NCBI RefSeq assembly: GCF_900095175.1
Contig: NZ_LT606946.1
Location: 970,058-1,034,057, forward strand
Direction of reading: 5' to 3'
Length of the DNA: 64,000 nt
From: Polynucleobacter necessarius
GTDB taxonomy: Bacteria; Pseudomonadota; Gammaproteobacteria; Burkholderiales; Burkholderiaceae
Each line of letters opens with the position of its first letter. Position 1 is the first letter of the stretch. The notes beneath the pieces were generated by a model. It saw nothing but the letters and a program-made list of their open reading frames with translations, was not told the DNA's origin and made no database searches. The translations under genes and the position numbers were made by a program. Below are positions 27,260-46,317 of this stretch, one piece after another.

Positions 27260-27532
27260 ATGGCACGCATGGTTCAATGCATCAAACTCAATAAAGAAGC
27301 CGAAGGTATGGACTTTGCTCCACTACCCGGCGAGCTAGGTAAGAAGATTTGGAATCAAGTCTCTAAAGAAGCTTGGGCTGCCTGGTTAAAGCAACAAACC
27401 ATGTTGATTAATGAGAATCGCCTGAATATGGCTGATCCTCGTGCTCGCCAATACCTACTCAAGCAAGTTGAAAAGTACTTCTTTGAAGGTGACGCAGACA
27501 CAGCTCAAGGCTATGTACCGCCTACTGAGTAA
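27260..27532 (+). CDS. yggX: Probable Fe(2+)-trafficking / oxidative damage protection protein YggX
   Basis: 90 aa, the usual size. [16 protein letters not shown] at the N-terminus contains the conserved Cys, followed by [17 protein letters not shown] and the family motif [19 protein letters not shown]. The family protects Fe-S proteins from oxidation and works with MutY in enterobacteria. It follows argA by 61 nt, with an AAAGG ribosome site. The sRNA candidate begins about 50 nt after its stop. Confidence 0.95.
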
Positions 27533-27548: not shown

Positions 27549-27577
27549 TTGACGAGTCAAATCCAGAGGCATAGGAT
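27549..27577 (+). promoter_or_regulatory. Predicted sigma70 promoter of the intergenic small RNA
   Basis: -35 TTGACG (27549-27554), 17-nt spacer, -10 TAGGAT (27572-27577). The predicted start falls at about 27584, the first base of the first perfect stem of the RNA. Confidence 0.55.
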
Positions 27578-27583
27578 TGAAGC

Positions 27584-27750
27584 GTAGTCGGTCAGATCTT
27601 GTGATTGGCTACATTGGCGAAAGCCACTACTTGTAAGCATATCTATGTGCTTATGGGCACTGGGAACTAAATCTCTTCCATTTGCCTGCGCCATGAAGAG
27701 TCATGGCAAACAAACCCGATGGATCAGCTTGCTGCCCCGTCGGGTTTTTT
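27584..27750 (+). ncRNA. Candidate structured small RNA of about 167 nt, function unknown
   Basis: No coding potential, own promoter and own terminator. Stem-loops: SL1 11 bp with wobbles (27584-27594 with 27602-27612, 7-nt loop), SL2 UGGC-GAAA-GCCA with a GNRA tetraloop (27615-27626), SL3 8 bp (27634-27641 with 27646-27653, UCUA loop), SL4 7 bp GCCAUGA/UCAUGGC with an AGAG loop (27690-27707), then the terminator hairpin. GUAGU at the 5' end can alternatively pair with ACUAC at 27626-27630. Several hairpins in series argue against a 6S-type rod, and no riboswitch core was recognised. Possible identities: an Hfq-dependent sRNA, or a lineage-specific family. Hfq is encoded elsewhere in this window. 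Confidence 0.6.
27712..27750 (+). terminator. Rho-independent terminator of the small RNA
   Basis: AAACCCGA (27712-27719) pairs with TCGGGTTT (27740-27747) over a 20-nt loop that can itself fold, followed by a T run. It ends just before the convergent rpiA stop and may also serve rpiA in the opposite direction. Confidence 0.8.
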
Positions 27751-27753
27751 AAT

Positions 27754-28464
27754 TTAGAAAGTAATTCTGCTCACGCCAGACGCATTGCTAACTAACAGGG
27801 TATTAGCTTTCTCTTTTGCAAATAATCCAACCGTAATCACGCCGGCGATTTGATTGATTTGCGTCTCAAGCGCAATTGGATCTGCAATCTTCAGGCCTGC
27901 TACATCCAGAATCCACCCGCCGTTATCTGTGACAAAAGGCTGACTTGGCGTCTGCCCTAAATCTGAACGAGTCTCTTTGGTCATTCTCAGAGTGACTGTA
28001 CCGCCCAGCTTAGCCAGCCCTTGAGTCACAACCCCTTTAGATAAAGGAATAATCTCCACCGGCAAAGCAAAGTTACCCAAGACCGGCACCTGCTTAGAAG
28101 AGTCACAAATGCAGATAAATTGCTTTGCCATCGAGGCAATAATCTTTTCACGAGTGAGCGCGCCGCCTCCACCCTTAATCATGTGACCAGCAGGATCAAT
28201 TTCATCGGCACCATCGACATAAGCAGGAAGTTGATCCACATCACTGGGATCCAGGACCTTAAAGCCGTGTTTCAACAAGCGCTCAGTTGTAGCATTAGAG
28301 CTTGATACCGTTCCGGCAAAATGATCCTTATGGGGTGCCAAAGCGTCAATAAAGCAGTTAGCGGTTGATCCAGTTCCAATACCCAGAATCTGACCAGTAG
28401 GCAGCTTTAACACCTCATCCCGCGCTGCTTCACCCACTAATTGCTTTAGTTGATCTTGATTCAT
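27754..28464 (-). CDS. rpiA: Ribose-5-phosphate isomerase A
   Basis: Interconverts ribose 5-phosphate and ribulose 5-phosphate in the pentose phosphate pathway. 236 aa, typical. Signatures: GTGSTANCFIDAL (phosphate loop), DGADEID with catalytic acids, and GGGGALTREKI containing the catalytic lysine region. It is divergent from transaldolase, another enzyme of the same pathway, with a 109-nt shared control region. Confidence 0.96.
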   Translation of the reverse strand: MNQDQLKQLVGEAARDEVLKLPTGQILGIGTGSTANCFIDALAPHKDHFAGTVSSSNATTERLLKHGFKVLDPSDVDQLPAYVDGADEIDPAGHMIKGGGGALTREKIIASMAKQFICICDSSKQVPVLGNFALPVEIIPLSKGVVTQGLAKLGGTVTLRMTKETRSDLGQTPSQPFVTDNGGWILDVAGLKIADPIALETQINQIAGVITVGLFAKEKANTLLVSNASGVSRITF

Positions 28465-33551: not shown

Positions 33552-33638
33552 GCCCAGGTGGCGAAATTGGTAGACGCACCAGCTTCAGGTGCTGGCGATC
33601 GTAAGGTTGTGGGGGTTCGAGTCCCTTCCTGGGCACCA
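33552..33638 (+). tRNA. tRNA-Leu (anticodon CAG)
   Basis: 87 nt including an encoded CCA. Acceptor arms GCCCAGG and CCTGGGC pair; the D arm contains the A/G-rich loop AAATTGGTAGA; the anticodon stem CCAGC/GCTGG encloses TTCAGGT with CAG as anticodon; a long class II variable arm follows and the T loop is GGTTCGAGTCC. Long variable arm and anticodon agree on leucine. Confidence 0.97.
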
Positions 33639-44848: not shown

Positions 44849-46115
44849 CGTTTGGTGAACATTTTCGGTTAGGAAGTGGGTTAAATTCGGAAGTCTCTGG
44901 TCGTTCGGGTAAAGGAGCTAAAAACTCGTCTGGATCCATTTGGACCTTAGCGCGATTCTGCTCGACCCTCATTCTATCAGTCATTTGGGAGCATTCAGCC
45001 AGCGCTGAACGCAATAAATCAAGGCCAAGGCCAGTCTTAGCGGAAAGGAAAACCTGGCTCGGGATTCCCTCGGAATCTCGGACCAAGACAGCCCCTTCCG
45101 TAAAGGTCTGGGGCATCTGGTCAATCTTGTTCATTACCTCAATTCGAGGGATGTCATCCGCCCCAATTTCCCTCAAAACCGCCTCTACTTCAGCCTTTTG
45201 CTCCCTGGCTACAGGGCTACAGGCGTCTATGACATGCAAAATCAAGTCCGCATGGATGGTTTCATCCAAAGTCGCCCTAAATGCCTCCACCAATTGATGG
45301 GGTAATTCACGTATAAAGCCGACCGTATCAGAGACCACAATAGACCCTACGCCATCCAAATGGACTTTCCGGGAGGTCGTATCTAACGTCGCAAACAGCT
45401 GGTCGGCGGCATAAGTCCCTGCTTTTGTAAGGGTATTAAATAAGGTGGATTTACCCGCATTGGTATATCCAACCAAAGATACAGAAAAGACATCTTTGCG
45501 ATTACGGGCTCTTCTTTGGGTTCTTTGCTGGCGCTGGAGCTTCTCCAACTCCGTTTCCAAGCGCTTAGCTTTGGTTGCTAACATACGTCTATCGAGCTCC
45601 ATCTGGGTTTCGCCAGGACCGCCACGAACACCAATACCGCCTCGTTGACGCTCCAAGTGGCTCCAAGCTCGCACCAATCTAGACATGCGATAACGTACTT
45701 GGGCTAGCTCAACCTGAGTTTTACCAATATGACTTTGTGCTCTCTGGCTAAAGATATCCAAGATCAGGCCTGTGCGGTCCATCACATGAAAACCAATATG
45801 ACGCTCAAGGTTGCGTTGCTGAGTTGGGGATAAGGGATGATTAAAGATGACTAATTCAGCACCTTGCTCTTCCATCACTTTTTTGACTTCATTTGCTTTG
45901 CCAGAGCCAATAAATAAAGCAGGATCGGTTTTGCCCTTCCGAGCAATCACACTAGCAGTGGGTATAGAGCCGGCACTGTCGGCAAGTAGGCTGAGTTCAG
46001 CCATGCTGTCCGCAAAATCCTCGCGGCCCGTATCAACCCCAACCAGAACGGCACGCGCCGCATCTACACCTGTTTTATACAGAGCTAACTTCTTCCGTAC
46101 GGAACTCCACTGCAC
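44841..46115 (-). CDS. hflX: GTPase HflX
   Basis: Ribosome-associated GTPase that splits stalled or heat-damaged 70S ribosomes in studied bacteria. 424 aa: N-terminal HflX domain ([44 protein letters not shown]), then a G domain with G1 [10 protein letters not shown]3 DTVGFI and G4 NKID. The ATG at 46115 lies inside the hfq reading frame, about 40 nt before the hfq stop; the true start may be a few codons later because conserved sequence begins at RAVLVGVD. Confidence 0.95.
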
Positions 46116-46317
46116 GTGCAGGGACGATTGTAGAAATAGCGTGCTTGTAGACCATCTGCGTTACGGTATTGCGCAACAGGACTACATACTGATCAAATGA
46201 TTCAATATTGCCTTGCAGCTTAATGCCATTAACAAGATAGATGGACACAGGGACATGCTCTTTGCGCAAGGCATTCAGGAATGGATCCTGTAGTAATTGG
46301 ATTTTGCTGTTATTCAT
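46075..46317 (-). CDS. hfq: RNA chaperone Hfq
   Basis: Hexameric Sm-like RNA chaperone for sRNA-mRNA pairing. 80 aa: Sm1 ([29 protein letters not shown], shortened here as [16 protein letters not shown] and [11 protein letters not shown]), Sm2 [10 protein letters not shown] with the conserved His, short C-terminal tail as usual in this group. Good ribosome site AAGGAG before the ATG. Relevant to the sRNA candidate at 27584. Confidence 0.97.

Follow-up and report, generated by a model that had tools for sequence, protein, structure and literature searches.

The window, which is the whole 64,000-nt stretch of Polynucleobacter necessarius DNA analysed here, carries yggX (Iron_traffic, PF04362) at 27260..27532 on the + strand and, convergent with it, rpiA (Rib_5-P_isom_A, PF06026) at 27754..28464 on the − strand, both assigned by Pfam. 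The spacer between them holds a predicted small RNA gene of ~167 nt on the + strand (27584..27750), delimited by fold, alignment and covariation. It is preceded by the promoter TTGACG-N17-TAGGAT (27549..27577, + strand), which was read in the window sequence and recurs in relatives; the −35 box lies at 27549–27554, the −10 box follows a 17-nt spacer at 27572–27577, and 6 nt separate TAGGAT from the first base of an 11-bp stem at 27584. The first base of the RNA was placed at G27584 from the promoter together with this first stem.

The predicted fold comprises five hairpins followed by an intrinsic terminator, all on the + strand. Hairpin 1 (27584..27612) pairs the extreme 5′ end in the 11-bp stem, which is closed by a 7-nt loop of the form G-N5-G. 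Hairpin 2 (27615..27626) is UGGC-GAAA-GCCA and has a GNRA loop (GAAA, GCAA or GTAA) in most aligned members; in one subclade (L050, L076 and L077) a longer stem stands in place of this GNRA-capped hairpin. Hairpin 3 (27633..27654) has 9 bp and the loop UCUA, which is UCUN or UUCN in relatives. Hairpin 4 (27655..27687) consists of two stacked helices beneath an open apical loop, CUAAAUCUC, a candidate contact site, and hairpin 5 (27690..27707) takes the form CCAUG...CAUGG. The terminator hairpin and its U6 tail occupy 27712..27750; this feature is supported by sequence and fold, and was absent from the list of a simple terminator scan of the window copy. The promoter, the 11-bp stem, the UGGC-GAAA-GCCA hairpin and the terminator are all present in the window as claimed by the original prediction, which counted four compact stem-loops; the hairpins are compact, but five of them precede the terminator.

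The window fold has a free energy of −68.9 kcal/mol, compared with −44.2 ± 3.8 kcal/mol for 200 dinucleotide shuffles, none of which was as stable (z = −6.53). The promoter alone is not clearly beyond chance, since the surrounding 2.4-kb region contains 6 promoter-like sites against 3.4 ± 1.9 in shuffles. It is this fold, the covariation and the recurrence of the promoter, both presented below, that bear out the coincidence of promoter and structure which had been thought hard to dismiss. We also found no conserved forward ORF, as the three forward frames carry a stop in 33, 34 and 35 of the 35 aligned members, in agreement with the claim that no protein is encoded.

In context and architecture the element fits the HRC-28-1 motif, which was published with 33 examples, mostly from Polynucleobacter, having a PRK05408 gene upstream, rpiA downstream in invariably opposite orientation, and six stems of which the last is apparently a terminator (Brewer et al. 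2021, RNA Biol., PMC8632094). The HRC-28-1 section of that paper suggests that the motif may be a structured 3′-UTR element of the upstream mRNA, and names neither a promoter nor unlinked copies (PMC8632094). The window element likewise lies between a PRK05408-type gene and a convergent rpiA and has six stems, the last being the intrinsic terminator; our consensus structure splits hairpin 4 in two and consequently has seven helices. We take yggX to be the PRK05408 gene of the HRC-28-1 context. The two were compared by description rather than by alignment columns, and agree in the points that the published text gives; the published account differs from ours in its number of examples and in its 3′-UTR suggestion. 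Describing the RNA as undescribed was accordingly wrong. A literature search found no second paper that uses the name HRC-28-1 and, among the matches listed, no other description of this Polynucleobacter RNA.

The original prediction had been unable to match the element to 6S, RNase P, tmRNA, SRP RNA or a riboswitch core, and the Rfam covariance models (Rfam 15, 4227 families) likewise left it unassigned. At gathering score the only match in the window is a tRNA at 33552–33635, and neither nine diverged loci nor two further loci gave any. Up to E = 10, the surroundings of the feature matched SpF36 and CRISPR-DR7 alone, both at chance level. 6S RNA (RF00013) is of similar size and is also intergenic and highly structured. 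Its architecture is one long bulged hairpin, whereas the Polynucleobacter RNA is a row of hairpins; the 6S covariance model gave no match to the element, and a separate 6S gene is present in the same genome (G000:C1:377735-377953). A riboswitch or other cis-regulator was rejected because the element is not 5′ of a sense gene, the next gene being the convergent rpiA. Anti-hemB, also called Burkholderia RNA 7 (RF02837), was rejected as well: a single diverged copy (L067, introduced below) shows a weak likeness to it of 18.1 bits (E = 0.038–0.054, against a gathering score of 49.5), which on viewing the alignment rests largely on the terminator, and the window copy is unmatched up to E = 10.

Using blastn, we found matches in 118 of 186 Polynucleobacter genomes, and the yggX-rpiA placement was seen in 50/50 loci fetched from these matches, including L047, where all that survives is the terminator plus the end of hairpin 5. 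From the 49 full loci we then picked 35 RNAs at more than 5% difference and aligned them with MAFFT (alignment A1). In A1, 98.7% of cells are paired and changes on both sides occur at 21 of 47 pairs (shuffled mean 6.2), with a covariation score of 0.233 against 0.136 in shuffled alignments; 0/500 shuffles reached any of the five measures used. When the pairing partners were slid, pairing fell to 34.5–39.4% and only 2–6 pairs showed double changes. Double changes are found at 6/10 modelled pairs of hairpin 1, 5/9 pairs of hairpin 3 and 4/6 modelled pairs of hairpin 5, hairpin 4 is also backed by covariation, and 8/10 stem pairs of the terminator are invariant in A1. A model-fitted alignment of 28 sequences (A4), which leans towards the structure, has double changes at 27/36 pairs and a covariation score of 0.540 against 0.235 shuffled, with 8–15 such pairs when slid. 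The check proposed by the original prediction, covariation in the yggX-rpiA spacer of relatives, came out in its favour.

The reach of the family was extended with three covariance models. R1, which includes the terminator, matched 119/186 genomes of the genus (E up to 0.001), and R2, built without it, matched 126/186 (E up to 0.01); their union is 127/186, G136 being found, as a partial match, by R1 alone. R3, also built without the terminator, was run on 40 genomes of the genus, comprising 38 previously matchless genomes, G087, whose blastn match covered only the terminator, and G145, and it matched G145 only. Each matching genome has a single copy with the exception of G134, leaving out of the count seven opposite-strand matches in the genus that overlap a sense match.

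Beyond the genus, R2 and R3 were run on 249 and 150 genomes of the family, respectively, and found nothing in 24 other genera, with stricter filters in searches of more than 40 genomes. Five weak matches obtained with R1 (G338, G216, G291, G379 and G272) were rejected when read out: that in G379 looks like a tRNA-like stretch and the others like the ends of genes, and a terminator follows every one of them. In titled genome records, an exact pattern occurred at 45 loci, 44 of which are Polynucleobacter, Burkholderiaceae or unclassified betaproteobacterial; the remaining one, on a Lachnospiraceae contig, was taken as chance. Viral contigs, searched with one exact pattern, and phages and plasmids, searched with blastn, gave no match. 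As far as found, the family thus appears specific to the genus Polynucleobacter, and more diverged relatives may escape these searches.

These results bear on the reading that the element is a chance fold or a selfish repeat with no cellular function. Repeated loss and relocation, both described below, would suit such a repeat; covariation over diverged lineages, the fold z of −6.5, the single copy per matching genome bar G134 and the lack of a viral, phage or plasmid match speak against it, and we consider it very improbable.

The promoter is also conserved. All 36 yggX-linked copies compared carry TTGAC followed by A, G or T as −35 box and TAGGAT or TAGCAT as −10 box, with a spacer of 17 nt in 33 and 16 nt in 3; as the −10 box served to place the RNA start in these copies, the independent evidence lies in the −35 box and the spacer. 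Among 49 loci, 14 to 74 nt separate the stop codon of yggX from the −35 box, and by eye the stretch between yggX and the promoter is unalignable between subclades, whereas the promoter and the RNA remain alignable. Between yggX and the RNA promoter, four loci (L035, L038, L039 and L048) have an inverted repeat, TGCTG-N2/5-CAGCA, with A+T-rich DNA behind it; this is possibly the end of the yggX mRNA or a regulator site.

Diverged copies of the RNA are found at six other kinds of site that are unlinked to yggX, and here too the promoter spacing is kept. Five of these copies lie in G182 (L066), G130 (L068), G134 (L069 and L070) and G145 (L086, a weak match of 35 bits), and eight form a second clade, found in G001, G126, G127, G128, G054, G049, G019 and G047 (L067 and L079–L085), whose members are close relatives and were counted as one site. 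In the second clade the RNA has a same-strand PIN-domain gene upstream and a convergent gene of the Polyketide_cyc type; the two proteins of G001 were assigned by Pfam and the rest by appearance, and the convergent gene of G047 is absent from the printed frames. Six of the eight genomes are single contigs and their yggX loci lie elsewhere. A short yggX-rpiA spacer that lacks the RNA is present in 7/8 second-clade genomes, including 5/6 single-contig ones; in the remaining one, G128, no rpiA turned up within the stretch read. Among the genomes with unlinked copies, G130, G134, G145, G019 and G047 are multi-contig assemblies. The two diverged copies of G134 lie on different contigs of an assembly with 2% contamination listed, and are either paralogues or the product of a mixed assembly. 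None of 9 loci searched has a tRNA next to the RNA, which would have hinted at integration.

In the unlinked copies the RNA start is fixed by the covariance model and not by the promoter. Each of the 13 copies has a promoter-like pair that scores 9–11 of 12, with a spacer of 17 nt between its boxes and 6 nt from the −10 box to the first stem. Scores of at least 9 were reached at 0.54% of 5000 random window positions and by 339/13000 (2.6%) sequences obtained by shuffling the 60-nt upstream stretches of the 13 copies. The pairs resemble the yggX-linked ones in 8/8 second-clade and 5/5 other unlinked copies, that of G145 being TTGCCA/CAGAAT. By eye and folding, the order of hairpins is kept, except that hairpin 1 of G145 is not separate when this copy is folded alone. 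Folds from four kinds of unlinked site have z between −3.9 and −6.5, and that of G145 has z = −3.2, with 2/200 shuffles as stable. A conserved promoter and terminator of its own therefore characterise the family, with a weak U tail in four unlinked copies (L066, L068–L070). Because the stems covary and the promoter recurs with the same spacing at unlinked loci, we regard the feature as real. Two further observations concern the DNA upstream of these promoters. In L068, TTGATTTTTATCAA, which resembles an FNR/ANR-type box, precedes the RNA promoter, ~70 nt before the first base of the RNA. In L067 and L079–L085, much the same A+T-rich block, GATAAATAAATTTCATGA or a variant of it, is found ahead of the −35 box and may represent an UP element or a binding site.

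Next, we considered the gain and loss of the gene using a tree of yggX and partial rpiA (77 rows, a quick method with SH-aLRT only). The yggX-rpiA copies group in a single clade of 59 rows, of which 51 have the RNA. The other 8, RNA-less rows occupy six places in the tree (L047; L087, L088 and L091; L089; L090; L092; L097), and in these genomes no model finds the RNA elsewhere. The yggX-rpiA spacer thus seems to have lost the RNA on about six occasions, a count that depends on some weak separating forks. With several open forks and some long-branched rows in the tree, the direction of relocation can be read either as one move to yggX-rpiA or as moves away from it in other lineages.

A rival reading follows the published suggestion (Brewer et al. 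2021, PMC8632094) and takes the RNA for a structured 3′-UTR element of the yggX mRNA, which would stabilise or terminate the message or be cut from it. There is no T-run terminator between yggX and the RNA, judging by eye and from a scan of the window copy, and transcription of yggX may well continue into the RNA. The terminator hairpin after yggX is kept in four of the eight RNA-less spacers (L047, L090, L092 and L097), which suggests that the terminator of the RNA probably also serves yggX and ends its readthrough. Sharing of this kind would suit a 3′-UTR element; copies unlinked to yggX, however, keep the promoter spacing and hairpin order, and the promoter is kept at 14 to 74 nt from the yggX stop. 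We hold the 3′-UTR reading to be unlikely. The covariation, the unlinked copies with their promoter spacing, the genus distribution and the repeated loss favour instead an independent, dispensable sRNA gene that relocates. The original prediction had already proposed an independent sRNA gene, complete with promoter and terminator, and this is supported by covariation, promoter conservation and, above all, the unlinked homologues.

Collectively, the motif is real, conserved and already published, and the comparisons argue that it most likely represents a family of stand-alone, dispensable sRNA genes in a single genus. What is new here is the covariation, the unlinked copies, the genus-wide distribution and the repeated loss. 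As the motif is in print, the addition consists in correcting its tentative 3′-UTR reading to what looks like an independent sRNA gene family, which points experimenters to a primary transcript and targets in trans and away from effects on yggX. Related freshwater bacteria, named strains among them, differ in whether they carry the gene and at which site, and so provide a natural experiment. By itself, the finding opens no large question.

With regard to function, folding of 10 members shows 64–67% of bases paired, the 5′ end within a stem and no long unstructured seed. The sole stretch open in 10/10 is the apical loop of hairpin 4, of 8–10 nt, which begins with C, is variable and for the most part A/U-rich in its middle, and as a rule leads into CUC and further pyrimidines; the variable middle is unlike a classical conserved seed. 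In the mechanism that we propose, a sigma-70 promoter would fire, transcription would begin at the first base of the 5′ hairpin and end at the RNA's own terminator, and the 5′-terminal hairpin would shield the RNA from 5′-dependent decay. The RNA would then act in trans, its hairpin-4 loop contacting target mRNAs, for example at purine-rich ribosome-binding sites or leaders. We give roughly even odds to this reading as a whole, that of a stand-alone gene for a stable, structured, ~165-nt trans-acting RNA with hairpin-4 loop contact and Hfq as its likeliest helper.

The chief rival is a stand-alone RNA that binds protein, as a CsrB- or 6S-like decoy or scaffold, instead of pairing with mRNA. 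Compact separate hairpins with short loops and no long seed would fit this reading, as would stems that compensate while loops persist (G-N5-G, mostly GNRA, UCUN/UUCN and the hairpin-4 flanks). No repeated motif such as a loop GGA was noticed by eye, however, and loss in about six places would not be expected of a global protein regulator; we rate protein binding as a serious but minority possibility. A related and somewhat more tentative thought is that the family represents a new genus-specific class of structured RNA with a relocating gene, in which the five hairpins would serve as a platform for one protein or for several partners. Such an RNA would act by binding, through its persistent loops, and not by antisense, and its stems would be left to drift by compensation. 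A stand-alone sRNA might also work in another mode, by sponging sRNAs or by acting on the mRNA of its convergent neighbour. The downstream genes are convergent at the yggX-rpiA and second-clade sites, but neighbours differ by site and are not convergent everywhere (e.g. L068 and L069), and this mode appears improbable.

For the trans-acting RNA that we prefer, Hfq would be the likeliest helper if one is needed, because Hfq is encoded in 8/8 genomes tested (five with the RNA and three without, G000 included) and ProQ in 0/8; its presence is compatible with the putative status of Hfq client and goes no further. Hfq-associated trans-acting sRNAs of Proteobacteria are intergenic, with their own promoter and an intrinsic terminator bearing a U tail. 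The Polynucleobacter RNA is like them in its own promoter, U-tailed terminator, intergenic position and restriction, as far as found, to one genus, and unlike them in being almost fully structured, with a paired 5′ end and no unpaired seed outside the loops. The hfq gene itself (PF17209) lies in the same window, at 46108–46293 on the − strand (G000:C1:1016165-1016350).
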